Positions 6,045-53,720 of a stretch of DNA of 64,000 bases are shown in pieces. The stretch spans positions 122,128,203-122,192,202 of the forward strand of contig CP092863.1 of the NCBI GenBank assembly GCA_030710605.1. Direction: 5' to 3'. Position numbers and translations under genes: made by a program. The notes under the pieces were generated by a model, which saw only the letters and a list, made by a program, of their open reading frames with translations, made no database searches and was not told where the DNA came from. The stretch is from Cordylochernes scorpioides. Taxonomy: Eukaryota; Arthropoda; Arachnida; Pseudoscorpiones; Chernetidae. The stretch's first letter is position 1, and each line of letters begins with the position of its first letter.

Positions 6045-6240
6045 CATTGCTTGCACCACGCTGATGAGGGCCAATAGCCCGAAACGCGTCCGTGGTTAGC
6101 TTTTCATGATTAATCAAGAATGGGTATTTGGCCAATTCTGGAATAATTAGAAATCAACGAGAATAGTTGATATTTATTCCGATAGATGGCGCAAGCCATC
6201 AGCAACTTTCAGTTGCACGATATGGAGATGCCTTTTTTCC
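6045..6240 (+). mobile_element. Family B short retroelement with 5' hammerhead
   Basis: About 190 bp: a hammerhead core, then gcttttcatgattaatcaag, then an AATTCTGGAATAATT block, then ATTCCGATAGATGGCGC / GCCATCAGCAAC, ending in GATGCC followed by a T run. Other copies lie at 10.1, 28.6, 43.0, 44.6, 44.9, 46.5 and 50.8 kb. It has no ORF. The T-run end shared with families C and E suggests recognition by a common reverse transcriptase (inference). Confidence 0.75.
6056..6095 (+). ncRNA. Hammerhead ribozyme (type I layout, palindromic stem III)
   Basis: All invariant parts are present: stem I 5' strand CCACG (6056-6060), CTGATGA (6061-6067), stem II GGGC/GCCC with loop CAATA (6068-6080), GAAA (6081-6084), then ACGCGT and C. 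Stem I 3' strand CGTGG follows (6091-6095) and pairs perfectly with CCACG. The predicted cut is after C6090, in a GUC context. Stem III (ACGCGU) is self-complementary, so it pairs best between two molecules or tandem copies, as known for retrozymes and satellite hammerheads. It would self-cleave the transcript and define an RNA end. Not tested; it is the best-preserved copy here. Confidence 0.82.
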
Positions 6241-6269
6241 CAGTTTATTTCATGTTTTTGTAATTCCAT

Positions 6270-6490
6270 ATATGCAACTCTACAGACCTATAAGCTTATG
6301 TCCATAGGTTCCCTAAACACCCCTAACTTGCCTTCCATAGTAAATACAGGGTATATAACAAAACCAATCCAATACAATAGTAGAGCGGTCTGGAGATTAA
6401 TTTGGTGATCGCTGAGAGGGTTCACTACACCATTGATGAGTCAAGCCCTCTCATATAGTAATTTTTATAAATGCAGTAATATTTGTTAGA
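6270..6490. mobile_element. Diverged family A relic
   Basis: Keeps ataagcttatgtccat, the gagagggttca...gatgagtcaagccctc core and aatgcagtaat, all diverged from the 3.1-kb copy. Confidence 0.5.
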
Positions 6491-6599
6491 GATAATATAT
6501 AATAAGAAACATGTTGTGAATTTACCCCCCATATAATAATTACAAATTAATATAATGTATGTTACCCAACAAAAACAGATTTCGTCAAATATACTCGTA

Positions 6600-7025
6600 T
6601 GATCATAAAATATGCATATATTACCTATAAACCTAGTTTCCCCCTAATTACATATGGGTAAAAAAATAGATATAAAAAGAGGAGAAAGAAGCTCTCTAAC
6701 CCGGGAAGTATGACGTATATATTGCAGTAAAAACAGCTTTCAGTCACATAAATGTTCACCAAATATGCATATATTACATATAAACCTAGTATCCCCCCCT
6801 AATTGCATATAGGTAAAAAAATAGATAGAAAAAGAGGAGAAAGAAGCCCTCTAACCCGGGAAGTATGACGTATATATTGCAGTAAAAAAGAGCTTTCAGT
6901 CACATAAATGTTCACCAAATATGCATATATTACATATAAACCTAGTTTTCCCCTAATTACATATAGGTAAAAAAGATGGCTTTCAAACTAGATATAAAAA
7001 GAGGAAGCACCCGGGAAGTATTGGG
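6600..7025. repeat. About 155-bp tandem repeat, 2.7 units
   Basis: Units start at ATGCATATATTAC (6612, 6765, 6921). Each carries aacctagtt, cccctaatt, aagaggagaaagaag, acccgggaagta and ttcagtcacataaatg. The third is truncated and shifts into the next array. Confidence 0.85.
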
Positions 7026-7189
7026 AGTGATCGGTCTAATTAGTTGAGAGTCCGTGGTTAAACAAAGTCCAGATCCCCCATTCATCTTGCCTCTCGCTCC
7101 ATTTCATCAGAGGCGCTCCAATAAAGTGGCAGCCCCCCCACCGTTGATTGGATGGATGGGCTGGGTCGATTCTCCACACTGTACCAGCC

Positions 7190-8641
7190 TTGGTTCAGAA
7201 AGCAGCTTTCCTTACCGCTATGTCTGGTTGAAGCATAAGATGTCTAGTATAGGATGTATTGCGAAAGTATTGGGTGTTATCTGAATATATAAGGATTCAA
7301 CTAGGAAATTTTCTCTTCTTTTGGTTCAGAATGCAGCTTTCCTGACCGCTATGTCTGGTTGAAGCATGTCTAGTATAGGATGTATTGCGAAAGTCCTGGA
7401 TTATCTATAAAATTATCTTTCTTAGTAGAGAACGCAGACTTCCTATCTACCTTGTTTATTCTGCCTTGTTGAAAGCATAAAGTTCGAGTCTAAGGAAAGA
7501 TCTACTAGTTTATATGTATCTACATGAAGATTTACTTAGCTTAGAATGTAGCTTTCCTGTCGACTATGTCTGGTTGAAGCATAAGATACATAGTATAGGA
7601 TGTATTCCGAAAGTTCTGGGTGTTATCTGAATATAAAAGGATTCAACTAGGAAAATTTCTCTTCTCTTAGTTCAGAATGTAGCTTTCCTACCCGCTATGC
7701 CATGTTGAAGCAAAAAGTGCCAATTTGAGGAAAGATTGCAAAAGCACTGAGTCATTTTAAAATATAAGGATTTAACTAGGAAATTTCTCTTAATTCAGAA
7801 GGCAGATTTCTGTCTACTAGGTCTGGTTGAAGCATAAGAGGCCGATCTGAAAATGAATTACGTAGGTCCTGGCTTAGCTGAATATATAAGGATTTAGCAA
7901 GGAAATTTCTCTTTTCTTAGTTAAGAATGATACTTTCCTGTCCACAATGACTTGTTGAAGCATAAGCTTCCTGGAAGAGAATGAATTAAGAATTGGTTCA
8001 GAACGCAGATTTCCTGTCATCTATTCCTAGTTGAACATAAGATGCCGATCTGAGAAGGTATTGCGAAAGTTCTAAGTGATCTGAATATATAAGAATTTAG
8101 CAAGGAAATTTATCTTAATTTAGTTCAGAACGCAGCTTTCCTGTTCACTATGTCTGATCGAGCATAAGCTCTGCCTAGTAGAGGATGGATTTAGAAAGTC
8201 CTGGGTTAACTGAATATATAAGGATTTAACCAAGAAATTTCTCATTTCTTATTGTAGAATACAGCTTTTTCTCTATTCCTGGTTGAAGTATAAAGTGCCG
8301 ATCTATAGATGGATTGCAAATTTACTAGGTTATCTCTATATACATTAATGTTATTTAAGGCATTTCTTGGTTTAGAATGCAGATTTCCTGACCACTCTGT
8401 CTTGTTGAAGCACAAATTGCCGATTTGAGGAAAGATTGCGATAGTCCTATGTTATCTGTATATACATGGATGTTAACTAAGCCATTTCCTAGTTCAGAAA
8501 GTAGATTTTGTACCCACTATGTCTTGTTGAAGCATAAAGAGCCTATCTGGATATACCTTAATGTTATTTAAGACATTTCTTGGTTTAGAATGCAGATTTC
8601 TTGTCCACACGGCTTGGTTGAATCATAAAGTGCCTATTTGA
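7190..8641. repeat. Degenerate satellite of about 125 bp, about 12 units
   Basis: Recurring words ttcagaatgcagctttcctg, tatgtctggttgaagcataa and tgccgatctgagg occur roughly every 120-130 bp (for example 7194, 7325, 7550, 7672, 7999, 8123, 8371, 8585). Units differ by many substitutions and indels, so the array is old. The preceding 7050-7190 is GC-richer, not repeated elsewhere in the window, and of unknown nature. Confidence 0.82.
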
Positions 8642-9260
8642 GAAATTTTTCACAATGTTTTCTTTGCGATGCTCTTTCTGCTCATTCGTTAAGAGATGTG
8701 GGACAAATTTATCCGGGAATCGTTTAAGATGCAGATCATTCTTTATGATGGTTTGGCATGTTCCAAAAGAGATATCCAAGTCTTCTGATAGCTCTCTGAT
8801 AGTTATTCTTTGGATTTCTTTGATCGATGACTTCATTTTGAGTGCATTTTCGGGGTTTCTTATCGATAAAGGTCTGCCAGTGTGTAGATAATCCTTGGCG
8901 CTTGTTCGACCAGCTTTAAATCGAGCAAACCATTCAAATGTCTTCGATTGTGATAGGGCATCTTCTTTAAAAGCCTGCTTCAACATTTGAAATGATTCGG
9001 AAGCTGCTTTCCCTAATTTAAAGCAAAACTTTATGCAGAATCGCTGTTTTTCAATACAGTCCATACTGAAGTTAGAAAAATTTCTGATATACTCGAGCTT
9101 ATAAATTCGAAAAGACGTTAGCACGTGCGTCTCTGTGATCAATTATTTTTCTACGTGTGGATAAATGTTTTATCTGATAAGGTCCTTATAAAATTATTTC
9201 ATTATTTTGAATATTTTACGCGATCCAGTCTCATTCCTGGAAATTATTGATCACACGTTG
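8642..9260 (-). pseudogene. Mariner-like transposase N-terminal half
   Basis: Starting at the ATG at 9064 the minus strand encodes the paired helix-turn-helix DNA-binding region of a mariner (Mos1-like) transposase: RFCIKFCFKLGKAASESFQML, ALSQSKTFEWFARFKAGRTS, GRPLSI, then ITIRELSEDLDISFGTCQTII and LTNEQKEHRKENI. The catalytic half is absent: at about 8642 the sequence changes abruptly into the 125-bp satellite, and the remaining open codons are satellite. The 5' end probably lies at the TA at 9261-9262 (gtgtgatcaataattt end). It cannot encode an active enzyme; a DNA-binding fragment could in principle act as a competitor, but there is no sign of selection. Confidence 0.88.
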
Positions 9261-10829: not shown

Positions 10830-11620
10830 TATCATGGACAAAACTTGAGGAAGTTGTACCTTTCAGCATGTATATCGGGATTGAGACAATAACTCTGAAA
10901 GATATTACAGTGACCTTTATTGAAGACATACGAGATAACCAATATACACTCATGGACAAAACTTGAGGAAGTTGTACCTTTCAGCATGTATATCGGGATT
11001 GAGACAATAACTCTGAAAGATATTACAGTGACATTTATTGAAGACACACGAGATAACCAATATACACCCATGGACAAAACTTGAGGAAGTTGTACCTTTC
11101 AGCATGTATATCGGGATTGAGACAATAACTCTGAAAGATATTACAGTGACCTTTATTGAAGACACACGAGATAACCAATATACACCCATGGACAAAACTT
11201 GAGGAAGTTGTACCTTTCAGCATGTATATCGGGATTGAGACAATAACTCTGAAAGATATTACAGTGACCTTTATTGAAGACACACGAGATAACCAATATA
11301 CACCCATGGACAAAACTTGAGGAAGTTGTACCTTTCAGCATGTATATCGGGATACAGACAATAACTCTGAAAGATATTACAGTGACCTTTATTGAAGACA
11401 CACGAGATAACCAATATACACTCATGGACAAAACTTAAGGAAGTTGTACCTTTCAGCATGTATATCGGGATTGAGACAATAACTCTGAAAGATATTACAG
11501 TGACCTTTATTGAAGACACACGAGATAACCAAGTGTGAACAACCTCTGTCTCCTTTTTAAAAAAGCAGACGACCGACGACATCAAAATATGAAACTTCCT
11601 TAAATATCATCCATGAATGT
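10830..11620 (-). repeat. 118-bp array 1 (about 6 units) in TIR element
   Basis: Six head-to-tail units of 118 bp, each with catggacaaaactt, tgtacctttcagcatg, tatcgggattgagacaataa and gtgacctttattgaagacac. The right flank (11530-11620) is the family's unique terminal arm: acaacctctgtctcc, gcagacgac, acttccttaa and a decayed catgaatgta terminus. This array carries a private aaacttgagg variant in five units. Open frames of 81 to 104 codons across units are frame-shifted echoes of the repeat, not genes. Confidence 0.92.
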
Positions 11621-12805: not shown

Positions 12806-13239
12806 ATATATTATGTATTTGTAAATATTTCTTGTAAGATATAGTCGATGTTTTTTATTAAGCCCGTTGAAGAGTTATTATCGCTTGAAAATTAGCATTT
12901 TAAAATAAAAAGAAACTCATTGTGAGAAAATATTTTGTATTTTAAAAACGTTTTTCACAATTTTATTATGAATGGGAAAGGATATATAGATGGCGCGCTA
13001 GTGCATCGTGATATAAAGGATATATTAAATAATATTGCCACGTGGAAAATTAGGGAAGACAAAAACTTCAGGAGGAAACAAATTTTATTTCAGGGAAGGA
13101 CAAAACTAAGAATGGTAAACAAAAGATAAGCCATGAGGGAAATTTACAGAGTCGCCAGATTTAAACATAAAAATGGCCACTCTGTTAATAAAAAATAATA
13201 AAATTAATAAATACTATGTTACAATATAAATATAGTACT
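12806..13239. other. Non-coding, with a family A terminus fragment
   Basis: 12985-13010 has ATGGCGCGCTAGTGCATC, the family A end. The rest, including a 64-codon plus frame, shows no family features. Confidence 0.35.
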
Positions 13240-13612
13240 GTTTTCAAATTACGAAACTATTTTAGGACGCGTAATATTCTTTTTAAAATAAAACAATTCC
13301 TACTGCCCTTACTTCAATGGAAAAATTAAAGGGAGGGCCTGACTCATCAGTGGTGAACCCTCCCAGCGGTTTCGCCAGTATAATCTACCATACCGCTGTT
13401 ATAATGCATTTTTGGAACTTCCTTTCATAGTGATACTGATGCTTGACTCTTCGAATGGGTATTTTAGATGAACTATGGACATAAGCTTTTAATTTTTCCA
13501 TTGCAGTAAGGGCAGGAGAAATTGTTTTAGTTTAAAAAGAATATTACGCGTCTAAAATAGTTTCGTAATTTGATAACAGATTGCGCGCTAGTGCATCGTA
13601 ATATAATAGTAC
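13240..13612. mobile_element. Family A MITE, long form
   Basis: Both arms and terminus are present. The loop carries an extra non-palindromic block (tttttggaacttcc, tgatactgatgcttgactc, gaactatggacataagc) also found at 41.1 kb. This long form is probably closer to the ancestral element. Confidence 0.75.
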
Positions 13613-18033: not shown

Positions 18034-19062
18034 TATACTCATGGAGACAAAACTTAAAGAAGTTGTACCTTTCAGCATGTATATCGGGATTGAGACAATA
18101 ACTCTGAAAGATATTACAGTGGCCTTTATTGAAGACACACGAGATAACCAATATACACTCATGGACAAAACTTAAGGAAGTTGTACCTTTCAGCATGTAT
18201 ATCGGGATTTGAGACAATAACTCTGAAATATATTACAGTGACCTTTATTGAAGACACACGAGATAACCAATATACACTCATGGACAAAACTTAAGGAAGT
18301 TGTACCTTTCAGCATGAATATCGGGATTGAGACAATAACTCTGAAAGATATTACAGTGACCTTTATTGAAGACACACGAGATAACCAATATACACTCATG
18401 GACAAAACTTAAGGAAGTTGTACCTTTCAGCATGTATATCGGGATTGAGACAATAACTCTGAAATATATTACAGTGACCTTATTGAAGACACACGAGATA
18501 CCAATATACACTCATGGACAAAACTTAAGGAAGTTGTACCTTTCAGCATGAATATCGGGATTGAGACAAAACTCTGAAAAGATATTACAGTGACCTTTAT
18601 TGAAGACACACGAGATAACCAATATACACTCATGGACAAAACTTAAGGAAGTTGTACCTTTCAGCATGTATATCGGGATTGAGACAATAACTCTGAAAGA
18701 TATTACAGTGACCTTTATTGAAGACACACGAGATAACCAATATACACTCATGGACAAAACTTAAGGAAGTTGTACCTTTCAGCATGAATATCGGGATTGA
18801 GACAATAACTCTGAAAGATATTACAGTGATCTTTATTGAAGACACACGATATAACCATATACACTCATGAACAAAACTTAAGGAAGTTGTACCTTTCAGC
18901 ATGAATATCGGGATTGAGACAATAACTCTGAAAGATATCACAGTGATCTTTATTGAAGACATACGAGATAACCAATTGTGGACAAAATTGCCTCTGTCTC
19001 ATTCGAAAAACAGTCGACCGGCGACATCAAAGACTTTCCACTTCCTTAAGATTTGTCCAGGA
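18034..19062 (-). repeat. 118-bp array 2 (about 8 units) in TIR element
   Basis: Eight units followed by the unique terminal arm (18972-19062: cctctgtctc, cagtcgaccggcgacatc, acttccttaag, tttgtcc). Units alternate between CATGTATATCGG and CATGAATATCGG over units 2-7, a dimeric higher-order pattern. Confidence 0.92.
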
Positions 19063-22487: not shown

Positions 22488-23160
22488 ATGGAGGCTGATG
22501 GAGTAGTGGTCTAAACCGTCGATTTCTGATAGATATGACACGGGTTCGAATCCCGCGTTGTACACTTTTTTTCTAAAGATTATTGCTTCAATGGGCACTG
22601 TTTCTTTCAAATGTCCAATTCCATTAGTGAGTCCAAGTAACATGAACTAGGCTCTAAGTGAAAAAGTCGAACAGCCTTTTACATATGTAAATATGTGGTG
22701 CACTTATAGTTAAACCAGTCTTTATCAGTAAAGCATCTTTTTTAGAAATTGTGAAGATTTCATTTGATACTTTGTGGATCTCCTAAAATCAAAGCTCGCA
22801 CTAAACTGAATAAGGCAATTAGCCCGAAACCATGGTCTCGAATGGTTCGAATCACGTATTGGACACTTTTTTCTAGAAAATATTGCTTCAATGGGCAATG
22901 TTTCTTTCAAATGTTCAATTCCATTAGTGAGTGCAAGTAACCAGAAATGGGGCTCTGGAACATTTGTAAGTGTAAAAGTTGAACTAGCTTTTACATATGT
23001 AGATATGTGGTGTACTTAGAGTAAAAGCAATCTTTATCAGCTAAGAATATCTTTAAGAAATTGTCAAGATTTCATTTGATACTTTGTGGATCTCATAAAA
23101 TCAAAGCTCGCTCTATACTGACGAGAGCCATTAGCCCGAAACCATGGTCTCGATGTGGGT
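22488..23160 (+). repeat. Tandem duplication of a SINE + family H chimera
   Basis: A unit of about 310-330 bp made of SINE body (B box GGTTCGAATCCC at about 22541; attgcttcaatgggca; aattccattagtgag) joined to family H (catttgatactttgtggatc, agcccgaaaccatggtctcg) is present twice (about 22517-22850 and 22851-23155). The second copy lacks the tRNA A-box part. Confidence 0.78.
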
Positions 23161-23560
23161 GTTTATCAGTTTACTAAACTTGATGTTGTGGCTTCTTCAC
23201 CGACCCGAGTCCGTTAGTTTGCCGAGACGGTTACTAGATGGGGCCTAGTTTCTAGCGTCTATTTTGACGGTGAGAGGTGACCTTTTATTTATATACCTCT
23301 ATATAGGTTACAACCTAGCTTTTTGTGGATCTCCTGAAATCAAAGCTCGACCTAAACTGAAGATGCCGATTAGCCCGAAACCATTGGTCTCGAGGACGGT
23401 GTGTTATCAGTTTGCTAAACTTGGTGCTCTGATTTTGTCACTTACCCGATTTCGCTAGTTTGCCGAGACGGTCAATAGTTGGGGTCTAGTTTCTGCCGTC
23501 TATTTTGACGGTGAGAGGTGACCTTTATTTATATAGCTATATATAGATTACAACATAGGT
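23161..23560 (+). mobile_element. Family H sequence, further tandem copy
   Basis: Two more blocks with gttgtggcttc, accgac/acccga, agtttgccgagacggt, tctattttgacgg and gagaggtgacctttt, separated by a third hammerhead-like core (aactgaagatgccgattagc and ccgaaacc at about 23356). Family H recurs at 52.6, 57.7-58.3 and 62.7 kb. Confidence 0.72.
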
Positions 23561-23835
23561 TTTGACTCACACTATATACAAGTTGAAAATTTCTACTAGA
23601 TATAGAATTGTAATATATTTAAGAACACTTTGTAAAAGTGAACTCTCTATTCTTTATACCTATCGCCTTCCTAGAAGATGTCTTTCATGTTAGACAATGC
23701 TAAAACGCTCTAGTATTTTAAAATATAAATAAATATTCATTTACAAGGTTATCCTAAAAGTCCGTAAACACTTGCAAAAAAATTGTACAAGATACTACAA
23801 GAATACTACTAGTGATGCTACTCGGTTGATACTAT

Positions 23836-24838: not shown

Positions 24839-24840
24839 TA

Positions 24841-25439: not shown

Positions 25440-25640
25440 GAGCATTTTTAGATTGAAGAGAGCCATCTAGTGGAACAAAAATCAACTAAACGTTGATTTA
25501 GGCTTGTATTCATAATATTTGGTTAACCCATTTTCTTGATAAATCTAAAATAAGAAAACCACGTACGCGTTTCGGGCTGTTGGTCCTCGTCAGCGTGGTG
25601 TAGGCTGTACTTCATTGGTTGATCCGTGTCGAAATGTTTT
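25440..25640 (-). mobile_element. Family C short retroelement with hammerhead
   Basis: Minus-strand order: hammerhead, gattttcttat..., atgggttaaccaaata, aacgtttagttgattttt, then ccactagatggctctc. Same architecture as family B but with different body sequence. Other copies lie at 28.9, 31.4, 37.1, 48.8 and 53.4 kb. Confidence 0.72.
25559..25598 (-). ncRNA. Hammerhead ribozyme, near-intact
   Basis: Minus strand: CCACG, CTGACGA, stem II GGAC/GCCC (one A-C mismatch) with loop CAACA, GAAA, ACGCGT, A, then CGTGG. The predicted cut follows GUA, an allowed NUH triplet. Stem I pairs over six bp. Stem III is again the self-complementary ACGCGU. Confidence 0.75.
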
Positions 25641-26189: not shown

Positions 26190-26383
26190 GAATATAATCT
26201 ATAATCCAAACTGTGCTTTATCTTGTGTCTTAGTGTTATAACAATTTATTAAATGATATGTGTGCGTATGTAAATATGAAATATGAGATGATTATTTCAA
26301 ATATATTGAATTTAATTGTTACATATACGACTCAAGGAGAAAGATACGATAAAGCTTAAATGTATAAAACTGTATAGAAAACA

Positions 26384-28062: not shown

Positions 28063-28611
28063 ATAAATAAAAAAAAAATCAACCATATATATATATTATA
28101 TAAACACGACATTCATAAGAAAAATCGAAATATTGATTCTTCAATATATACACAAGAAATAGAATATGATATCATGAATAAACATTTGTAAAACGCTATA
28201 CATACTTTTTTAAGATGGTAAAATGTAATTTTCCAGGCAGAAGACATTTTTAAATTTAAGAAAAAAAGAACATGGAGGACCAACTGGAAATTCTTCCATC
28301 ATACCCCTCCGTTCTATTCAATAACTTATATTGAATTTTAATCTATCAATATTATATTTAATCATGTTTATATTTAAATAATAAAATTGAAATTCTATTC
28401 ATTGTGGTCACAAATTTGCCCCATTCAACATTTTATTTTATTACCCGCTGTCAAAACTTTTAAATGTATTTATTGAAAGATTATGAGGCTTATATGATGA
28501 GGTTTCCTGTAGTATATTGATATATGCAAATAATATGTAAATATGTAACGCATATGTTTCTATAATTGTTTTCCAGATAGAATATTGACACCATGTATAA
28601 TTATACCATTG
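28063..28611. other. AT-rich non-coding
   Basis: No repeats shared with the rest of the window were recognised. Confidence 0.35.
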
Positions 28612-28765
28612 TCCGTGGTTAGCTTTTCTTGATTAATCAAAAATGGGTATTTAGCCAATTCTGGAATAATTAAAAATCAACGAGAATAGTTGGTATTTAT
28701 TCCGATTGATGGCGCAAGCCATCAGCAACTTTCATTTGCACGATAAGGAGATGCCTTTTTTCATA
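28612..28765 (+). mobile_element. Family B copy without hammerhead
   Basis: Runs from gtccgtggttagc to gagatgcctttttt. It starts right after the predicted cleavage site (cgtgg), i.e. with the 5' end that hammerhead self-cleavage would make. Confidence 0.72.
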
Positions 28766-28904: not shown

Positions 28905-29100
28905 TGGTCGTTGAGGTACAGCCTACACCACGCTGTCGAGGACCAACAGTCTGAAACGTGTTGATAGTTGGCTTTTCTTGTTTTTATCAAGAAATGGGTG
29001 AACCAAATACTATTGAGAAAGTTAAATCAACTTTAGGTATTTTTTTGTTCATTTAAATGGCGCTCTGTCATCTAAAAATGCTTTTGTAAGCTGTCAGGAT
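28905..29100 (+). mobile_element. Family C copy with mutated hammerhead
   Basis: Core ccacgctgtcgagg...ctgaaacgtg at 28928-28957. The invariant A6 is changed (CUGUCGA) and stem III is altered, so cleavage is unlikely. The body follows with tttttatcaagaaatgg and aaatggcgctctgtcatct. Confidence 0.65.
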
Positions 29101-30544
29101 GTACCTATTCTAGTTTATAATATCACTTGACCCCTTTTTAAAAATATTTTCCTATATTTTCACATATTTTGAAGTCACCGGTCATCTATTTCCTTTTTTT
29201 TTTTTGAAGGATAGAGAGGGACTTTTATTCATTATGTTACTGTGTATCGAATATCTTTTAGAGTTATTATCCGAATCCCTATATACATGCTAGAAGTTAC
29301 AACTTCAAATTTCTGTCCATAGGTGTTTATTATATTTGCATATTTAATTACATATCACAATATATGTATACAGATATGTAAATTCAGTAGAAATATTCTG
29401 AAATAACACTTTATCTTATATATATAGAGGATTATCTGTTTTCCTTAGAAAGGTTTATACATTAAGCTTTGATTTTTTAAAAATATGAAATAACTCTAAC
29501 GGTATATAAAATATCAATATTATCGGGTTAAACAAACCTTTGTACTGAAATAGTCCATGTAGAGCTATTAGTTCAGTCCTATATATATTCCATAAATAAA
29601 ATCATCACACAAAGTCAATAAATCGAAAAATAAATTTGAAAGACGTTAGAGAAAAAAATTGCACACACAAATATAAAAAAAGGTTACCTTAAAATATTAA
29701 ATATATCTTCCATAAATATTTAATAATTCAACCAAAATATGAGGGTTATTTTGTATAGAGAAAAATAAAGGGGGAAAATATCTACGGATAAATCATTTTT
29801 TATCAAAATTTATTAAACACATTTATTAGATCGGGACGTCATAGAACTTTTGGTGAATTCTGGCATGGCTTTCATACTCTAACCTCTCTCAGGAAACATG
29901 GCTTCCCTTATTGAACCATGTTATTTATGTGAAGTCTTTCGAATTTCACCTCAAAATTTGAATTTTATCGTTATACCTACCGTAATGTAGATTGGAGAGT
30001 TAAAATTTTGAGGTAAGGAACGTTGTTTATTGAGGTTCGGCTGACTTTTATTTAAAAGTTGCATAACAGTCTTCTCTCTATTTCCATATTCTACAAAACC
30101 TATATGCAATTCAGTATATATTTTTTTATCTTATCTATAAAAGGTTTTATATTGGTTTTTCGATAGAGCGCTTTTAAAGTATTATGCAAATATTACTATA
30201 AATTTGATAGGTTAATAAAATTAGTTGTTTTTTATTAATAATTGTGTTTTTCAATTTTTACAAATGAATATTTACCTTATAAAGTTTAAATATTTTCTCC
30301 TCTTGGTAATTTTTCACGTCAAGGTTGACGTCTCCTAAATGTTTGAAATGAATTTACGTTATAATATTAGAATCATCTCCTTTTTTTTCAGATAATAAAA
30401 ACGATCAATTAAATGATATAAGAATGTTAATTAATAAATCTGCCTATGCTCTCTCTCTGTGAGAGATAGAGAATAGTTTTTAAAATATTTTTTAATCATT
30501 TTATATATAACATTTCTTTATAAAAATGATTATATTTTTAATCC
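29101..30544. other. Non-coding, with a diverged 118-bp unit
   Basis: 29240-29330 is a single decayed 118-bp unit (ttttagagttatta, atatacatgctagaag, tgtccataggtgt). The remainder is AT-rich, including 29840-30060, which is less AT-rich but unassigned. Confidence 0.4.
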
Positions 30545-31180: not shown

Positions 31181-31429
31181 CTTGACATTATATATTTGAA
31201 ATGATATTCTGAATTTAACAAAAATGGTGTTTTGGTTTATACATCTTTCGAAAATAAGCCTTATGCTCAGAAACCATTAAAATCAATTGATTTGGGTTCC
31301 TTCAATAAATCAATTTATGTATTTATTCAAAAATAGGCACAAAGTTCTATATATAGATATGTGGAAAAATAATAGAAAAAAATAAAAAAAGGTTAGGTGT
31401 TGATATTAAAAATAAAAATGACATATCTT

Positions 31430-31675
31430 GACCGGGAGCACATGTGCTTTACAGAAGGCAGAGCGCCATCTGGTGGAACAGAAATCAACTAAACATTGAT
31501 TTAACCTGTTCCCTGATATTTGGTAATCCAATATTTTGATAAATAAAGAAAAGCCATGGGTTGGCCAAATATCAGGGAACAGGGTAAATCAATGTTAGTT
31601 GATTTCTGCTCCACCAGATGGCGCTCTTTCTTCTGTAAAGCACATGTGTTCCTGGTCAGGATATGCCCTTTTTAT
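31430..31675. mobile_element. Family C foldback, about 240 bp
   Basis: Two inverted family C bodies (cacatgtgctttacagaagg / cttctgtaaagcacatgtg; gagcgccatctggtggaaca / its complement) meet at a short centre near 31545. It is hairpin-forming and lacks the ribozyme core. Confidence 0.8.
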
Positions 31676-32153
31676 TTTTAATATATAGATATATGTATAT
31701 ATTTACATATATATGCAATATAAATTGCAAGAGGATGATAATTATGTAAAGAGGCATCTCTCGCTTGTAAAATACATAAAAACAAATTAGTAACCACTCC
31801 TGTACAGAAGGTAATGATGATAAAGATTGAGCAACAACACCAGTTTTGGAAAATACAGCTAGAAGCCAACCTGTATATTTTACAGGCAGAGGCAGGTACA
31901 TATATGTATATAGGGAGCCAGATTTAAATGCCAATATTTGCCTAAGAACAAAAAAAGGAACAGACGAGGAGGTTGTTGAGAAAAGAAATATAAAAACCAC
32001 ACAGACGATCTTCAGCCAACTGTCAATTAGCACGTTGCCTAGCAACGTCGTCTGACAATAAATAATAAAAGTTTTAGAGTCGTCTGCCGGCGAGTAGGTT
32101 TCGTCTGCATGGAATTCCACATCGGTTGTTGCGCCCCCTGTGGACCATTTCAT
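31656..32153 (-). other. Long unassigned open frame (165 codons)
   Basis: The longest frame here not explained by a transposase or tandem array. It starts MKWSTGGATTDVEFHADETY; the C-terminal half is I/Y/F/L-rich and could look like membrane segments (FYVFYKREMPLYIIIILLQF). No family is recognised. The last codons lie in family C. AT-rich strands give hydrophobic frames by chance, so I do not call a gene, but 165 codons without a stop is unusual at this composition. Confidence 0.15.
31955..32110. promoter_or_regulatory. RFX X-box with five CAGACGA words
   Basis: GTTGCCTAGCAAC at 32034-32046 is a perfect inverted-repeat X-box of the kind bound by RFX factors (GTNRCC, spacer, RGYAAC). CAGACGA or its complement occurs at 31961, 32002, 32048, 32080 and 32101. 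The sequence is not repeated elsewhere and is CpG-richer than its surroundings. It could be a promoter or enhancer; no adjoining gene is identified. Confidence 0.4.
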
Positions 32154-37079: not shown

Positions 37080-37265
37080 TATATGGCTTTTCTTGATTTG
37101 AAAAAAAAAATGGGTTGGCCAAATATCAGGGAACAAGTTAACTCAACGTTTAGTTGATTTCTGTTCCACTAGATGGCGCTCTGTCATCTAAAAAGCACAT
37201 GTGCTCCTGGTCAGGATATGCTTTCTTCATTTTAAATATCAACACCTGACCCTTTTATATATTTA
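37080..37265 (+). mobile_element. Family C body
   Basis: gcttttcttgattt, atgggttggccaaatatcag, aacgtttagttgatttctg, ccactagatggcgctctg, then ggtcaggatatgc. The hammerhead part is absent; the copy begins just downstream of where the cut site would be. Confidence 0.7.
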
Positions 37266-37668
37266 TTTTTCTATTGTTTTTCATATATATATGTGGGTGT
37301 TCATTTTTATTTAAATGGTTTTAACATGACATGAACACGTGTCAATATATATAATTTCATTTAAATTTTAATTTATCACAACTTTTAAAATCTTATATTC
37401 AATTCAAACAAATCAAAATTATGTACAATATTAATGATTAATTAAGTATTTAAAGCTTTTAAACGAATCAAAAATGACCCCCTTAAGGTATATTTCTATA
37501 TTTAATTAATTAATTTGAATCTTCAATGTGTATATTAATATAATATTAATATTTGATATTCTTTTATAAAACTAACGTATTCCACGCCACCTAAATTAAA
37601 CATGTTAATCATTTTATATCTAAAGTTTATTAATTAATATAAAGTCACATAACAAATATTTCATTTAT
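37266..37668. other. AT-rich non-coding
   Basis: Nothing recognised. Confidence 0.35.
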
Positions 37669-37669
37669 A

Positions 37670-37835
37670 TTATCATGCATTAGCGCGCCATTTGTTATGA
37701 AAATTTGAAACTATTATAGACACGTATGATTCTTTTTACTTAAACTGGCGAAACCGCTGGGAGGGTTCATTACTGATGAGCCAGGTCCTCCCATTAATTT
37801 TTTCAATGCAGTAAGGGCAGTATAAATTGTTTAAA
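37670..37835. mobile_element. Family A MITE, internally deleted
   Basis: Terminus ATTAGCGCGCCATTTGTTAT and a short left arm join directly to the right half of the core (aactggcgaaaccgctggga...tgatgagccagg). Confidence 0.72.
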
Positions 37836-39724: not shown

Positions 39725-39726
39725 TA

Positions 39727-40961: not shown

Positions 40962-41225
40962 TCAAAATTCGAAATTAGTTTAAACGCGTATGATTATTTC
41001 TGAAATCAAACAATTTCTACTGCTCTTACTGCAATGGAAAAATTAATGGGAGGGCCTGTCTCATTAGTGGTGAACCCTCCCAGCGGTTTCGCCAGTTTAA
41101 TCTACCATATCGCTGCTATATTGAATTTTTGGAACTTCCTTTTATAGTGATACTGATGCTTGACTCTTGGAATTGGTATTTTAGATGAACTATGGACATA
41201 AGCTTTGAAGACAGTAGAATTATAT
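40962..41225 (+). mobile_element. Family A long form, right arm missing
   Basis: Left arm, complete core, and the tggaacttcc...gatactgatgcttgactc block; ends near agacagtagaatt. Confidence 0.74.
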
Positions 41226-41773: not shown

Positions 41774-42214
41774 CATTTGTGGATAAAACTTAAGGAAGTG
41801 GAAAGTCTTTGATGTCGTCAGACGGTCTTTTTTTATTTTTTTTATACAGAGGTTGTTCACACTTGGTTATTTTGCGTGTTTTCAATAAAGGTCACTGTAA
41901 TATCTTTCAGAGTTATTGTCTCAATCCCGATATACAGGCTGAAAGGTACAACTTCCTTAAGTTTTGTCCATGAGTGTATATTGGTTATCTTGCGTGTCTT
42001 CAATAAAGGTCACTGTAATATCTTTCAGAGTTATTGTCTTAATCCCGATATACATGCTGAAAGGTACAACTTCCTTAAGTTTTGTCCATGAGTGTATATT
42101 GGTTATCTTGCGTGTTTTCAATGACTGTCACTGTAATATCTTTCAGAGTTATTGTCTCAATCCCGATATACATGGTAAAAGGTACAACTTCCTTAAGTTT
42201 TGTCTCCATGATTG
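41774..42214 (+). mobile_element. 118-bp TIR element with three units
   Basis: 441 bp between TA dinucleotides (41772-41773, 42215-42216): a diverged TIR and arm (ggataaaacttaaggaagtg, gatgtcgtcagacgg), three units, closing TIR. Units share a private TTGCGTGT variant, so amplification happened inside this copy. Confidence 0.9.
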
Positions 42215-42239
42215 TATATTTTCCAATGCCTTTTAAAAA

Positions 42240-42989: not shown

Positions 42990-43222
42990 AAAAAGGCATC
43001 TCCTTATCGTAAAACTGAAAGTTGCTGATGGCTTGCGCCATCTATCGGAATAAATATCAACTATTCTCGATTTCAGCCCCAAACGCGTCCGTGGTTCCGT
43101 GGATATTTAGCCAATTCTGGAATAATTAAAAATAAAACGAGAATAGTTGATATTTATTCCGATAGATGGCGCAAGCCATCAGCAACTTTCAGTTGCACGA
43201 TAAAGAGATGCCTTTTTTTCAT
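42990..43222. mobile_element. Family B foldback
   Basis: Two inverted B bodies (aaggcatctccttatcg... and ...gagatgcctttt) with a decayed core (cccaaacgcgtccgtgg: GAAA became CAAA) in the centre. A hairpin with arms of about 95 bp. Confidence 0.8.
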
Positions 43223-43489: not shown

Positions 43490-44165
43490 TAAAAATAAAA
43501 CAAACTTTATAATGTCCTTACTCTGCGATGAAAAAATATTGGGAGGGCTTGGCTCATCAGTGATAAACACTCTCAGCCGTTTCGCCAATTTAATCTACCA
43601 GACCGCTTCTTAGAGCTCTAATACTGTATTGGACGGTTCTGTTTATATATGTTACACTGAAGGATGGAATCTCAGAAATGGTATTCAAGCAAACTATGGA
43701 TATACGTTTTTAGGACAGTAGAATTATATATAATATTTGCATATAATTTTAGCGCTTGTTTTTCCCAATAAAGCAGACTGATACAAACAAGTATACTTGT
43801 ATGTGGCGTGCTAAGACATCATTTTATAATTGTTCTAAAAAGTATTCTACTTTATATTTGCATAAGAGCAATTGCTCGAAGCCTATTCTATATTTATAAT
43901 TACATTTTCTATATCGTCCTCAAAGCTTATGTCCATATTTCCTTTAAAATACCTTTTCCAAAAGGTCAGCTTCAGTATGAGAATAAAAGCAAAACATCCC
44001 AATGTGTGCCATATTACAGCGATATGGTGGATAAAACTGGCGAAACTGCTGGTAGGGTTCCACACTGATGAGCCAGGCCCTCCCATTAATTTATCAATGC
44101 AGAGAAAGGGCAGTATAAAATTGTTTTATTTTAAAAAGAATCATGCGTGTTAAAATATAGTTCAA
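43490..44165. mobile_element. Two diverged family A copies
   Basis: The first (43490-43725) has ttggcgaaac/gatgagccaa in place of ctggcgaaac/gatgagccag, a paired change. The second (43905-44165) is inverted, with a longer middle (gcttatgtccata...catattacagcgatatgg). Confidence 0.72.
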
Positions 44166-44634: not shown

Positions 44635-45085
44635 GAAAAAGGCATCTCCTTATCGTGCAACTGAAAGGTGCTGATGGCTTGCGCCATCTATCGGAATAAA
44701 TATCAACTATTCTCGTTGATTTTTAATTATTCCAGAATTGGCCAAATACCCATTCTTGATTAATCAAGAAAAGCTGCATCAGTTGCACGATAAGTAGATG
44801 CCTTTTTAATAATTTATGCACCTTATCCCAGTACAATATCACATTTGTACTATTTTTTCACACACTTAGTTGATTCGAAAAATAGTACAAAAGTAAATTT
44901 TTACTTGTATCAAGTAGATAAATTAGGAAAAAAATATATTTCCTGATCGTGCAACTCAAAGTTGCTGATGGCTTGCGCCATCTATCGGAATAAATATCAA
45001 CTATTCTTGATTTTTTAAATTTTCTAGAATTGGCCAAATACCGCTTCTTGATTAATCAAGATCAGGAAATGTATTTTTTCTTTAC
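44635..45085 (-). mobile_element. Two family B copies in tandem
   Basis: 44635-44808 and 44935-45085, both minus. The first has a short inverted second end (tgcatcagttgcacgataag). Neither keeps the ribozyme core. Confidence 0.75.
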
Positions 45086-45654: not shown

Positions 45655-46100
45655 TTATTTTAAAAAGACATATATTGGATCAAAATATAATTTATTCGCT
45701 AATATTGCAGTTGGCTAAACCCCAAACTTTTTCAAGGTACAACAACGTATTCATGTCAACAATGAACTCAGCGCCACATAAAGATTAAACTAGCGAAACC
45801 GCTGGGAGGGTTCACCACTGATGAGCCAGGCCCTCCCATTAATTTTTCCATTGCAGTAAAGACAGTAAAAATTGTTTAATATCAAAAAGAATCTTACGCC
45901 TTTAAAATAGTTTCAAATTTCCATAACAGATGGCGTGCTAGTGCATCATAAAGTGAGCTGTTTACATTTTATATATAAACAAAGAACTCACGATATGTGG
46001 CTCTGAGTTGTTGTACCATGAAAAAGGTTGGCGTTCATCTAACTGAAATATGAGTATAAATAATTTTTTTTTTATCCAATACATACCTTTTTAATTAAAG
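45655..46100. mobile_element. Family E foldback with nested family A
   Basis: Left E arm (gacatatattggatcaaa...caaggtacaacaacgtattc) and right E arm (gttgtaccatgaaaaagg...ccaatacatacc) enclose a family A half-element (45783-45945), so A inserted into E. Confidence 0.78.
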
Positions 46101-46489
46101 ATTTATTTATGAATAACTCTATTTAAAAAATTAAATTGTATATATATGTCAAATATAAATATTCAAAACGAGAAATATTTACTAAATTTTTAAATTTTTC
46201 TTGAAGTATATACATCTATTAAAAATATATAAATATATTCAAAGTTTCCAAATTAACATTTTAATTATGAAGATTTAAAAAAGTGACAAAAGATGGCGTT
46301 AATTAAAGTACTCCATTTTGATCACCACTTGGATGAAATTTTAATATATTATATGGTCACACTGGGTGTATTGGGTAATACATCTTTTTGGATTGAAAAT
46401 CAAATTACACATTTTAAAAAACGGGTTTCTCTAATTAATATAGATTTTTTAAAATATATAATATTACCTAAATATATATTAAGAAAAAG
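46101..46489. other. AT-rich non-coding
   Basis: The 84-codon plus frame at 46293-46547 ends inside family B and looks incidental. Confidence 0.35.
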
Positions 46490-46660
46490 GCATCTCCTTA
46501 TCGTGAAACTGAGAGTAGTTGATGGCTTGCGCCATCTATCGGAATAAATATCAACTATTCTCGTTGATTTTTAATTATTCCAGAATTGGCCAATTACCCA
46601 TTCTTGATTAATCAAGTAAAGCTAACCACGTACGCGTTTCGGGCTGTTTGCCGAACTAAT
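46490..46660 (-). mobile_element. Family B copy with half hammerhead
   Basis: Body complete; the core keeps ccacgtacgcgtttcgggc, then is cut off within stem II at about 46650. Confidence 0.72.
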
Positions 46661-46794: not shown

Positions 46795-47545
46795 AAATTT
46801 CGGTAGACAAACGTCAGCCTTTATCAATGTACAACAACGAATTTATTTGCATAAGTGATTATATTGCATATAATGTGTCTTTATATGTTGCATAAGCACG
46901 AAATCTGTTATAAGAAATTTGAACTATTTTTAACGCGTATGTTTCTTTTCGAATTAAAACAATTTTTACTGTCCTTACTGCAATATGATAAATTAATGGA
47001 AGGGCCTGGTTAGATTAAACTGGCGAAACTGCTGGGAGGGTTCACCACTGATGAGCCAGCCACTCCCATTAATTTATAATCACAGAAAGGACAGTGTAGA
47101 AATTATTTTAAATCAAAAAGATTCATACACGTCAAAAAAGAGTCTAAATATCTGTAGGGGACATGTGAAAATTATTGTTTTGTATTTCGATTTTATGTAA
47201 ATTTTGTTTGCTTTTTAAAAATTCATATTTGTTTGTTGAAAATATGCAAAATTTTTATTATCTAATTTATATATTTTTTTCCTATTTAATTGAATTCATT
47301 CTTTTTTTTTTGTTGTCTGAATATAATAACAATAACAAGGTATAACCTAAGTGATAACAATAAAACAAAACTTGATTTTGCAAGAAATGTTTATGTGGAT
47401 TATTGTTAATTAACCACCACATTTCTTATATCTTATATAATACCTTTTAGTACATTGAAAAAGGTTGGCGTTTAGTGACCCGAAATATTGCTAAATATAT
47501 CCATTTCTTAATTTTTGATCAATATAAACATTTTTATTATATAAA
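46795..47545. mobile_element. Family E foldback with nested family A
   Basis: Left E arm 46795-46855, family A 46898-47145 (loop lost between two half-cores), right E arm about 47455-47545. Same nesting as at 45.7 kb but an independent insertion point. Confidence 0.68.
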
Positions 47546-50029: not shown

Positions 50030-50065
50030 AAAAATAGACACTTCGGCCAGTTGGAGTGTTTTATT

Positions 50066-50108
50066 TTCTCAACGTTTCGACAAAAATCTTTTGTCTTCGT
50101 CAGGAGAA
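50066..50108 (-). ncRNA. Hammerhead-like ribozyme in left arm of family F
   Basis: Exact mirror of the right-arm motif on the other strand, so transcripts of either strand carry it. Confidence 0.63.
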
Positions 50109-50141
50109 GTAAATAAAGCATTGGCAAGGCGTTAAATTTAC

Positions 50142-50184
50142 TTCTCCTGACGAAGACAAAAGATTTTTGTCGAAACGTTGAGAA
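50142..50184 (+). ncRNA. Hammerhead-like ribozyme in right arm of family F
   Basis: TTCTC (50142-50146), CTGACGA (50147-50153), one extra A, stem II GACAAAA/TTTTGTC with loop GAT, GAAA (50072-like core at 50172-50175), ACGT, T, then GAGAA pairing with TTCTC. Predicted cut after GUU. Stem III ACGU is self-complementary. The extra A beside stem II and the GUU triplet may lower activity. Confidence 0.65.
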
Positions 50185-50225
50185 AATAAAAAATAAAACT
50201 CCAACTGGCCGAAGTGTCTATTTTT

Positions 50226-50799
50226 CTAATATATATATATTTTTTTTTTTCAATTTTTTATTAAAATAACAATTTCTTTTATAACTATCAATAAATATAT
50301 TTTATAATTTATATAGAAGATATATAGTAAAAGAAATCAATTTTATATATTTATAAAATAACGATTTCGTACATTATAAAAATATCATTTAAAAAATCGG
50401 TATGATGAAAAGAAAAAAAAAAGGTTTACAATGAATCAGAAAATAAAAATAATCTTGGAAGGGAGGGTGATAAAGGTTCGCAGACGAAAATGCATACCTG
50501 GTCAAAAAAAAAGAGCAGAAGGCAATATAACAGAGGTGGTGAGGAATTTTTGGCGGGAAAAAATTTCTTCTGCTTTCTTATAAATTGTATTGAATATATT
50601 TTAGAAGAAATCGATACTAAACTGATATCCCATGTTTCTATGAAAGAAATCTATTGTATTATTTTAAATGTTTATATTTACATATCTCCTTTTTATCTGT
50701 TAAATATATATATACTTTTCTATTTAATTTATTAATATACTATACATTATTCCTTATTAATTAGGTTAAAACTATTTAAATATAGTTAACTTTTTCTTG
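50226..50799. other. AT-rich DNA, CAGACGA at 50481
   Basis: 50455-50580 is purine-rich, with gcagacgaaaatgc and ggcgggaaaaaa. An 81-codon frame there has no recognisable domain. Confidence 0.3.
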
Positions 50800-51135
50800 A
50801 TTAAACAAGAAAATATTTTTGGATAATATTATGGAATAAATTTTTTTAAAAAATCGACGATTAGTTTGTATATATGCCGATAGATGGCGCACACCATCAG
50901 CAAATATTATTTTCTCGATATCAGGATATAAATATTCGAAATTATTATAGACGCGTATGATTCTTTTGAAAATTAAACAATTTCTAATGTTCTTACTGCA
51001 ATGGAAATATTAAAAGGAGGGCCTGGCTCATCAGTGGTAAACCCTCTCAGAAAACCCTTCTAAAGAATAATCATACGCGTCTATAATAGTTTCAAATATT
51101 CATAACAGATGGCGCGCTGATGTATCATAATATCA
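50800..51135. mobile_element. Family B relic followed by family A copy
   Basis: 50800-50930: ttcttgattaaacaagaaaa and gccgatagatggcgcacacc. 50935-51135: family A with most of the loop lost, terminus cagatggcgcgctgatg. Confidence 0.68.
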
Positions 51136-52584: not shown

Positions 52585-52619
52585 ACTATGGTTTCGGGCT
52601 AATGGCCCTCATCAGTACA
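52585..52619 (-). ncRNA. Family H hammerhead core cut by the assembly gap
   Basis: Minus strand: CTGATGA, perfect stem II GGGC/GCCC with loop CATTA, GAAA, then ACCATAGT. The 5' stem I strand lies in the N run, so completeness cannot be judged. Confidence 0.5.
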
Positions 52620-52719
52620 NNNNNNNNNNNNNNNNNNNNNNNNNNNNNNNNNNNNNNNNNNNNNNNNNNNNNNNNNNNNNNNNNNNNNNNNNNNNNNNNN
52701 NNNNNNNNNNNNNNNNNNN
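52620..52719. other. Assembly gap (100 N)
   Basis: Exactly 100 N, the usual placeholder for a gap of unknown size. The left side is family H, so repeats probably broke the assembly. Confidence 0.97.
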
Positions 52720-52854
52720 GATCGTATCTACCGTGTAAATCGGGGGATAGGTGTATAAGAAACTCATCCTGGGTGATTTTCTTTTTCTAATAATTGTCGA
52801 AGGATTTTAAGTCGATATGAATACGTAACGAAACTAAGAAGCAATTTTATTTTC

Positions 52855-53010
52855 AATTTTTCAATATGAAACTAACTTTATATACTGTCCTTACTGTGAC
52901 GATGATAAAAAGATATATTGGGAGGGCTTGGCTCATCAGTAGTAAACCCTCTATTTATTTATTAACCAGTTTAATCTACCATACCAATTTTAGAGCTCTA
53001 ATATTGTATT
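52855..53010 (+). mobile_element. Diverged family A copy
   Basis: tactgtccttactgtgacg, ttgggagggcttggctcatc, taatctaccatacc. Confidence 0.55.
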
Positions 53011-53429
53011 GGAAAATTTTGTTTACTTCTTTATCACCCTGAATTATCACCACCATTACGTTTTGTACTGTAGATAATGAAAATTGGAAGCTATATATTA
53101 GTAGTCAGTTTCTCAGCAATTTCAAACTCCTTGTTCATGAAATCTCAACAGAATTTGAATATCATCGTTAAATTAGCGCTCTCTATCGCTGAAAATTATC
53201 TTTATAGCTAATGCATCATAATATAACTGTAGATAATAAACAAACATAATGCATGTCTTTAATGTAATTTTAAAGGGAGAGGTGCCACGTTTACTTAATA
53301 TACTGAAGTGTTTACAAATTAGAGATTGCTTCTTCCAAAAAAAAAAGATACTGCCTCAGTACAGAGCTCAGACAAACCTGAAGAAGAAGGATCCCGCTCT
53401 AAAACGAAATATATATACATATAAACAAA
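53011..53429. other. Non-coding, with family J word
   Basis: ttaaagggagaggtgccacg at 53270-53289; otherwise nothing firm. Confidence 0.35.
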
Positions 53430-53720
53430 GAAGCCATCTCCTGAACACGAGCACATGTGCTTTTTAGATGGCAGAGCGCCATCTAGTAGAGCAAAAATAA
53501 ACTAAACGTTTATTTAGCTTGCTCCGTTATATTTGGCCATTCCAATTTCTTGATAAATCAAGAAAAGCCATCCACGAACGCGTTTCGCGCTGTTGGCGCT
53601 CGTCAGCGTGGAGAAGGCTGTAAAAAGCACATGTGCTCGTGGTCAGGAGATGCCTTTATTTTTAATATCAACACCTGACCCACTTATCTTTTATTTTTTT
53701 CTATTGTTTTTTCATATACA
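53430..53720 (-). mobile_element. Family C element, nearly complete, ends inverted
   Basis: Minus-strand order: hammerhead, gatttatcaagaaattgg, ataacggagcaagc, aacgtttagtttattttt, ctagatggcgctctgcc, aagcacatgtgctcgtg. Beyond the ribozyme the tail is present again in reverse (aaaagcacatgtgctcgtgg, ggagatgcctttatttt), so the copy is partly foldback. Confidence 0.8.
53572..53611 (-). ncRNA. Hammerhead ribozyme with covarying stem II
   Basis: Minus strand: CCACG, CTGACGA, stem II GCGC/GCGC with loop CAACA, GAAA, ACGCGT, T, CGTGG. Compared with the 6.06-kb copy (GGGC/GCCC) stem II has changed on both sides and still pairs, which supports selection for RNA structure. The cut is predicted after GUU. 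Confidence 0.8.

Follow-up and report, generated by a model that had tools for sequence, protein, structure and literature searches.

Short retroelement-like repeats with type I and apparent type-SGC hammerheads in a pseudoscorpion genome

We analyzed a window of 64,000 nucleotides from the arachnid Cordylochernes scorpioides (contig CP092863.1), and we put at about 60% the reading that several of its repeat families represent short retroelements, non-autonomous or 5'-truncated, of the Penelope-like element (PLE) type with a hammerhead ribozyme in the 5' part. The hammerhead would be of type I in families B, C and E, and of type SGC in family D. The blocks and helices of these hammerheads, two 3' sites, tails, head-to-head arms and direct repeats are present in the sequence. 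The 3' ends, tails, arms and target duplications point to mobilization of the PLE type. Because no ORF for a reverse transcriptase with GIY-YIG endonuclease was found, the elements are called PLE-type and non-autonomous instead of PLEs; PLE coding was sought by Pfam on 10 ORFs and by a crude RT and GIY-YIG motif scan of the window. Inspection of frames of at least 55 aa in the upstream part of the long D copies (~250 nt; 41.1 and 44.1 kb) found nothing PLE-like.

Block order and pairing in family D

The hammerhead blocks of family D (13 copies) are arranged with the cleavage site first, then GAAA and last CUGAUGA (S-G-C), and stems I and II are connected by a fourth helix. The proposed layout reverses the cyclic order, which would make stems I, II and III cross one another, and the fourth helix would act as a bridge. 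The following copies illustrate the layout and its decay.

13330..13402 (-): intact copy, site side: stem III 3' strand AGCGGT 13397-13392, H17 = A 13391, stem I 5' strand TGGT 13390-13387; predicted cut between 13391 and 13390
Same copy (-), GAAA side: stem II 3' strand CTGGC 13378-13374, GAAA 13373-13370, stem III 5' strand ACCGCT 13370-13365
Same copy (-), core side: stem I 3' strand ACCA 13354-13351, CTGATGA 13350-13344, stem II 5' strand GTCAG 13343-13339
Same copy (-), bridge: GGGAGGG 13364-13358 with CCCTCCC 13337-13331
2290..2362 (+): all blocks; stem I 3/4 pairs, stem II 4/5 pairs
41047..41119 (-): all blocks, core altered to CUAAUGA
43540..43612 (-): diverged; H17 = C, stem II UUGGC/GCCAA changed on both sides
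44013..44085 (+): all blocks; stem I 2/4 pairs
6379..6453 (+): diverged, without GAAA; stem II and bridge with one pair each changed on both sides
52919..52993 (-): decayed G block

Judged by the block order and stems I-III of the copy at 13330-13402(-), family D appears to carry a type-SGC hammerhead. This is the one fully intact copy among the 13; the 41.1-kb copy has all blocks, but its core change should kill the ribozyme. All 22 of 22 pairs are formed in the intact copy, a number reached by none of 400 shuffled windows. In 40,000 permutations of the remaining letters around fixed cores, no more than 19 pairs formed, versus 22. Across the D copies 83.7% of cells are paired, compared with 38-53% when slid, and the bridge helix GGGAGGG/CCCUCCC reaches 92%. 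Core bases mismatch at 5/139 positions versus 177/1609 downstream (p 0.0035).

It could be argued that D contains no hammerhead: two ordinary hairpins might have loops that match each other by coincidence, with CTGATGA and GAAA falling in them fortuitously. The predicted fold of the intact copy does consist of two hairpins alone, stem III and the bridge (z -3.0), a fold that counts for the type-SGC layout too, and covariation is not significant, since 79-260 of 500 label shuffles reach the values observed for the four pairs changed on both sides. A strict scan for all six block orders gave one match in the window (S-G-C) and seven over 150 shuffled windows, so the scan is weak alone; it also forbids a palindromic stem III and is therefore blind to B, C and E. 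Against chance pairing, every block is flanked by flush helices on both sides, H17 is plausible, the fourth helix sits where type SGC has one, and the permutations stopped short of the observed pairing. We consider chance hairpins improbable.

Other placements of D were also tried. As type I, II or III, singly or across tandem units, D gave no fit, and the six-order scan returned only S-G-C. In viral contigs four patterns found no match, and the single match in a prokaryote genome, a Mycobacterium contig, was taken as chance. A blast comparison of D with B, C, E, H and F (word 5, E up to 1) listed no homology.

HRIMA-1 and its variants make up type SGC, a hammerhead whose permutation is non-circular. 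The first description, from 2023, came from RNA whose source organisms were not identified; its authors report none in the genomes of known organisms and leave the evolution of hammerhead permutations open (Eckert et al. 2023, PMC10085705). Type SGC resembles D in its S-G-C order, conserved nucleotides, stems I-III and helix joining I and II, and some examples likewise have 0 nt between the bridge helix and stem III. In D, 8 nt link stems I and II, versus typically 3 nt in type SGC. Unlike the published examples, D consists of dispersed retroelement copies in an animal genome. It is quite possible, though we would stop short of calling it probable, that D is a working non-circularly permuted ribozyme spreading in the PLE manner beside type I elements; no earlier one would then be known from the cellular genome of a probable known species.

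Type I hammerheads in families B, C and E

The motif CTGANGA-N6..30-CGAAAC occurs 8 times in the window versus 0.04 expected (100 shuffles). A type I descriptor, defined as stem II, palindromic stem III and H17, matched at four places (6061+, 23118+, 25593-, 53606-), three of them with a 6-bp stem I. Altogether 60 shuffles yielded 3 descriptor matches, none with at least 4 contiguous stem I pairs. B, C and E each have one copy that combines the 6-bp stem I with the core, stem II and palindromic stem III (B6, C25 and E53 below).

6048..6241 (+): B6, type I element; stem I ACCACG 6055-6060 / CGTGGT 6091-6096, core 6061-6067, stem II 6068-6080, GAAA 6081-6084, palindrome ACGCGT 6084-6089, H17 = C 6090, predicted cut between 6090 and 6091; direct repeats AGTTTATTTCAT at 6036-6047 and 6242-6253
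28611..28762 (+): B copy with its start 3 nt upstream of the predicted cut; flanks ATAATTATACCATT, identical over 14 and, allowing one mismatch, over 16
46484..46652 (-): B copy truncated within stem II
44636..44807 (-): B copy, hammerhead lost; 5' side bears an inverted piece of its own 3' end
42990..43218 (+): B head-to-head pair, partial hammerhead at the junction
25532..25617 (-): C25, putative type I hammerhead; core 25593-25587, H17 = A 25564, A.C mismatch in stem II
28912..29110 (+): C28.9; core altered to CUGUCGA (28933), stem II GGAC/GUCU
53428..53713 (-): E53, head-to-head; core 53606-53600, H17 = U 53577; one short arm, one tailed (53621-53716); direct repeats 53413-53427 and 53714-53728, 15 bp with one mismatch
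31364..31684 (unstranded): E head-to-head pair lacking a hammerhead; the tailed arm reaches 31364(-), the short one 31684(+)
37083..37285 (+): E copy, 5'-truncated and tailed

At its sixth pair, stem I reads U-A in both B6 and C25, and A-U in E53. By their CUGANGA, GAAA and UH, stems I-III and the order C-G-S, B6 and E53 classify as type I, with stem III available only as a palindrome (dimer). Folding of these two adds an outer part of stem I past an internal loop, GCU/AGC in B6 and AGCC/GGCU in E53; the stability of the folds is unremarkable (z -0.82 and -1.47).

The initial annotation had proposed a superfamily of ORF-less repeats, families B, C, E, F and H, built around hammerheads, and all five copies it named were located in the window (6056-6095+, 25559-25598-, 53572-53611-, 50066-50108- and 50142-50184+). 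ORF-less repeats with hammerheads are indeed present, as one superfamily (B/C/E) plus H and F. The hammerheads hold up in B and E and less surely in C, where C25 has the stem II mismatch; F has an extra base and H is decayed. The proposed change of stem II on both sides was borne out between families (B GGGC/GCCC, C28.9 GGAC/GUCU, E GCGC/GCGC). Exact stem I pairing, claimed for B, C and F, was recovered over 6 bp in B6 and C25 and over 5 bp in F, and is broken in C28.9. The 3' end ATGCC-TTTTT, said to be common to B, C and E, is present in B, roughly so in E and missing from C28.9. The description of B, C and E as otherwise different in sequence did not survive alignment (B6-C25 74% over 144 nt; C25-E53 82% over 165 nt): as aligned, they are subfamilies of one element, so three of the five families are not separate.

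Rfam hammerhead models at their gathering thresholds gave no match in the window, a result that formally counts against the initial annotation on that point. Below threshold, Hammerhead_HH9 (cut-off 52 bits) scored 28.0 bits at 53557-53622(-) (E 0.0079) and 25.1 bits at 6043-6113(+) (E 0.07). The very short palindromic stem III is probably ill-suited to the models, which would account for the shortfall. The literature already has type I hammerheads both from PLE ends and from small repeats of animals (PMC7229834, PMC7761336, PMC11167929); taken alone, the type I part would be ordinary.

Insertion structures and 3' ends

The D loci are as follows (arm ends in consensus positions).

3099..3371 (unstranded): D head-to-head insertion, arm ends 177 and 206; direct repeats 3086-3099 / 3372-3385, inverted-strand reading, 14 bp with one mismatch
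13238..13604 (unstranded): D head-to-head insertion, arm ends 181 and 206; direct repeats ATAGTACTGTTTT (13 bp)
1997..2449 (unstranded): two adjoining D head-to-head pairs, ends 178/177 and 206/177
46884..47133 (unstranded): D head-to-head pair, ends 202/154
50927..51133 (unstranded): D head-to-head pair, ends 177/206
54326..54541 (unstranded): D head-to-head pair, ribozyme part gone, ends 206/178
37667..37834 (unstranded): D head-to-head pair, ends 206/131
45767..45951 (+): single D copy, damaged S block; direct repeats 45758-45770 / 45978-45990, 13 bp with one mismatch

Of the 24 D arm ends, 18 fall at two sites, consensus 177-181 (8) or 202-206 (10). D and E have two fixed 3' sites and an optional tail, of 29 nt in D and at least ~43 nt in E, where the query ended; B has a single 3' end. 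One short arm is combined with one tailed arm in 5/8 D head-to-head pairs and 2/2 E pairs, the exceptions in D being one pair with two short arms and two with an arm ending elsewhere. Direct repeats of 12-16 bp flank 8 of the 25 loci tested (p <= 0.034; ~1 expected). They were not found at the other 17, which include B at 43.0, 44.6, 44.9 and 10.1 kb, C25, C28.9, the F pair at 50 kb and the H arrays.

Inverted ends are seen in E53, the F pair, B at 44.6 kb and several D copies, as would be expected of DNA transposons (MITEs) with terminal inverted repeats. However, the inverted parts differ in length on the inner side, the direct repeats are not of one length, and the insertions at 6048-6241 and 28611-28762 lack inverted ends yet have direct repeats of their own. 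This origin was rejected as highly improbable.

Animal non-LTR retrozymes, which spread by hammerhead-made circular RNAs and LINE-type insertion in corals, mussels and axolotl, share several features with the present repeats. Such elements are described for arthropods too, and like the present repeats they are small, non-coding and AT-rich, with a type I hammerhead and target repeats >4 bp (Cervera and de la Pena 2020, PMC7229834); the H tandem of two 240-nt units is a further likeness to them. B, C, E and D differ in being non-tandem here (single or head-to-head), with fixed 3' ends and 5' truncations, and D and E are tailed, whereas a circular template should yield varied or multimeric ends. 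We regard a retrozyme origin as doubtful.

Minimal type I hammerheads of PLEs (Cervera and de la Pena 2014; Lunse et al. 2017, as reported in PMC7761336 and PMC6155905) resemble those of B, C and E in type, in their little or palindromic stem III and in their dispersal, and the tail signature of E is a further likeness to these PLEs. B and E differ from them in the internal loop and outer helix of stem I, and no PLE ORF was found in the window. PAc, a Penelope-like retrotransposon of Anolis, has two start sites with an optional tail of 30-40 bp between them, favors AT-rich DNA and extends the two strands (PMC11167929). D and E share with PAc two putative reverse-transcription start sites, the tail, AT-rich targets, apparent extension of both strands and a hammerhead near the end; unlike PAc, they are without an ORF here, and the D hammerhead is permuted.

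PAc inserts in vitro without hammerhead cleavage, and no reads start at its hammerhead cut (PMC11167929). Together with the decay of most copies in the window, this suits the view of the ribozymes as dead relics: the repeats would be PLE ends with 5' truncations, and their hammerheads would no longer be relevant to spreading. Intact copies in B, E and D speak against it, as does the better conservation of D core bases relative to the downstream part, though not clearly relative to the stems (p 0.067). We judge dead relics unlikely, while giving them serious weight. The 5' ends cluster weakly at the predicted cut (3/17, p 0.039; best window corrected p 0.22), which is too weak to serve as proof of cleavage, the windows having been chosen after looking.

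Proposed mechanism and implications

Under the preferred PLE-type reading, the ribozyme would cut a read-through transcript, and a PLE protein made elsewhere would bind the RNA close to its 3' end. Both cut strands of the target would prime reverse transcription, each beginning at one or the other internal site. The resulting pair of cDNAs would then meet, producing head-to-head arms of which usually just one has the tail, the tail being the stretch between the two 3' sites and the arms being flanked by the 12-16 bp target duplications. We infer the cleavage, the PLE enzyme, the joining of the two cDNAs and the order of these steps.

Head-to-head joining and template jumps could also be a process that reshuffles ribozyme blocks, which, if true, would answer how permutations arise. 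If an animal genome does contain a dispersed type-SGC family, this ribozyme would gain a host and a carrier, along with many copies on which covariation, dating and cleavage could be tested. With similar retroelements of a single genome carrying the classical and the permuted form, the evolution of permutations would become testable.

Families D, F and H

Family D was absent from the list of the initial annotation; it lies among the same repeats and holds the more unusual hammerhead. Copies of F and H are listed below.

50030..50229 (unstranded): F head-to-head pair; cores 50103(-) and 50147(+), stem I UUCUC/GAGAA (5 bp), palindrome ACGU
23083..23563 (+): H tandem of two ~240-nt units, a decayed hammerhead in each, cores 23118 and 23357
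57667..57918 (-): H copy, core CUGACAA at 57833

F has one additional A between core and stem II. Stem I of H contains a mismatch in 6/6 copies (the 52.6-kb copy being partly visible, with Ns), and its core is altered in 3/6 (22.8, 57.8 and 58.3 kb). Rfam microRNA matches, such as that at 50030-50225, were under the cut-offs and lie on inverted repeats.

Hammerhead-bearing repeats in the window

We found that the hammerhead-bearing repeats proposed in the initial annotation are real, with pattern and descriptor matches far more numerous than expected by chance. The type I part, carried by the short families B, C and E and in altered form by F and H, is of an already known kind. Family D, a repeat of 13 copies, is judged from its sequence to be probably a permuted hammerhead carried by Penelope-like (PLE-type) elements. 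All hammerhead and repeat copy counts refer to the 64-kb window, which is eukaryotic, has a GC content of 31% and contains fragments of mariner, Tc1 and non-LTR elements:

8585-9142, 63481-63816, 231-584, 516-986: mariner-type transposase pieces, non-LTR endonuclease, RNase H ORF
59685-60629: Tc1-like transposase ORF; many Cordylochernes scorpioides proteins match it at up to 98% identity
34406-34476: tRNA gene (59.5 bits)
10833-11532, 18037-18976, 21337-22236, 26383-28062, 38670-39729, 41863-42220: 118-bp satellite, six arrays, both orientations
26105-26170 and 31479-31608: long inverted repeats, weak sub-cut-off microRNA family matches
23083-23563: H tandem, two units of ~240 nt, a decayed hammerhead in each

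A protein search with the Tc1 ORF gave 1,992 relatives (E <=0.001); the 120 listed were all named Cordylochernes scorpioides (arachnid, pseudoscorpion), at 80-98% identity. Judged by this single mobile gene, the host is probably C. scorpioides or a related species. It was noted that the inverted repeat at 31479-31608 is an E head-to-head pair and that the H tandem is the only retrozyme-like arrangement in the window.

Type I hammerheads

The best copies of B, C and E (near 6, 25 and 53 kb) each possess a 6-bp stem I, the core, stem II (one mismatch in C), GAAA and the palindrome ACGCGU; H17, the nucleotide before the predicted cut, is C, A and U, respectively. The two-sided stem II changes claimed earlier were recovered among B, C and E at two pairs, and one pair of stem I also changes on both sides; because the sequences are few, these changes are supporting rather than statistical evidence. 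The same core had been assigned to F and H, and this stood in part: F carries an extra base beside stem II, and H shows a stem I mismatch in all six copies and an altered core in three. No hammerhead in the window exceeded the Rfam covariance-model thresholds. Amphibian and PLE hammerheads with such a stem III are reported to show weak activity as a monomer and better activity as a dimer (PMC7229834, PMC6155905, PMC7761336); by analogy, the palindromic stem III of B, C and E would predict the same.

Family D as a probable permuted hammerhead

The consensus of the 13 D copies, read by eye, was AGCGGUA UGGU-AGAUUAAA-CUGGC-GAA-ACCGCU-GGGAGGG-UUC-ACCA-CUGAUGA-GCCAG-G-CCCUCCC. In this consensus, stem III pairs AGCGGU with ACCGCU, stem I UGGU with ACCA, stem II CUGGC with GCCAG and the fourth helix GGGAGGG with CCCUCCC; the cut is predicted after GGUA, or after GGUC in the copies at 43.6 and 6.4 kb. 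All three blocks, namely S (cleavage site), G (GAAA) and C (CUGAUGA), were recognisable in five of the 13 copies, here named by C-block position and strand:

13350-: all blocks, the only one of the five without defect
2342+: all blocks, two pairs missing
41067-: all blocks, core reads CUAAUGA
43560- and 44065+: all blocks, pairs missing
6.4- and 52.9-kb copies: G block lost
2118-, 3215-, 47039+, 45809+, 37764+, 51043-: site block absent or damaged

A covariance model built on 11 copies found 13 places at E <1e-7, being those 11 and two more, and the next of the 22 listed matches stood at E 0.15.

Six hammerhead block orders were defined by Eckert et al. 2023 (PMC10085705). As described in that paper, type SGC shares with D the order S-G-C and a helix that connects stems I and II at their other sides, and a few cases share the 0 nt between this helix and stem III; the stem I-II linker is 8 nt in D and typically 3 nt in type SGC. 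Within the open-licence literature covered, the term "type-SGC" was found only in that paper, and the papers listed there included no report of type-SGC in a genome.

A strict scan for the six orders matched the window once, at 13350(-) in the order S-G-C, and gave seven matches over all orders in 150 shuffled windows, one of them S-G-C. With the fourth helix scored, the window reached 22, 20, 20, 20, 18 and 17, while 400 shuffled windows gave 335 matches >=15, five >=20 and none at 22. The number of copies adds little because they are related, and the main chance test is the permutation that keeps the D cores: with all remaining letters permuted 40,000 times, the maximum was 19 against the observed 22.

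Across 11 copies, 83.7% of 239 cells were paired, compared to 38-53% when slid. Four pairs changed on both sides, two of these in one decayed copy, and no covariation measure over the 11 copies exceeded label shuffles (79 to 260 of 500 reached the observed value). Core bases were mismatched at 5/139 compared to 177/1609 downstream (p 0.0035) and 44/527 in stems (p 0.067). The predicted fold is two hairpins (z -3.0 at 13330-13402; -1.73 at 2290-2362).

Insertion anatomy and possible cleavage

Head-to-head insertions consist of two inverted arms, either short or carrying a tail between two 3' sites. The 24 D arm ends fell at consensus 177-181 (eight), at 202-206 (ten) or earlier (six). One short and one tailed arm made up five of eight readable D pairs, the others being one with two short arms and two with a tailed arm and an arm ending earlier, and likewise both E pairs. 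E short arms end at query 145-157 and tailed arms at 200-203; the query ends at 203, so that the E tail measures about 43 nt or more. B shows only one 3' end.

A search for direct repeats covered 25 loci, with p from up to 120 random placements per locus; eight reached p <=0.034, with about one expected by chance:

B 6.05: 12 bp
B 28.6: 16 bp, one mismatch
B 46.5: 15 bp, one mismatch, not at the expected ends
E 53.5: 15 bp, one mismatch
D 3.1: 14 bp, one mismatch
D 13.3: 13 bp
D 45.8: 13 bp, one mismatch
H 62.7 (5'-truncated copy, 62698-62819): 14 bp, exact

In a lizard PLE, two internal start sites enclose an optional tail of 30-40 bp; this element uses AT-rich targets, with both strands extended (PMC11167929). 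Two PLE-type cDNAs, one per strand, would join head to head, a joining that we infer.

Three D arms (2118-, 3215-, 47039+) start by eye <=2 bases from the predicted cut. By blast starts, three of 17 truncated D arms lay within 3-4 nt of it (p 0.039) and another window, immediately 3' of the ribozyme, held five of 17 (p 0.0055), the two windows being picked post hoc; 5'-end clustering of the 17 gave a best-window p of 0.22 after correction. These ends offer only hints of cleavage in vivo. The lizard PLE inserted in vitro without need for cleavage, and no reads began at the cut (PMC11167929).

CTCF-like matches

The E and C copies contain sequence that matches the CTCF site consensus, CCACYAGATGGCGCT:

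31476(-), 31611(+), 37166(+): match in E/C copies
25473(-), 48834(-), 53489(-): the same with one mismatch, E/C copies
24839-25223: tandem repeat of 51 bp containing CCACTAGAGGACACC, which has one mismatch to this consensus

Alternatively, this stretch of the E and C copies may be retained as an RNA hairpin. The window contains YAGATGGCGC 20 times.
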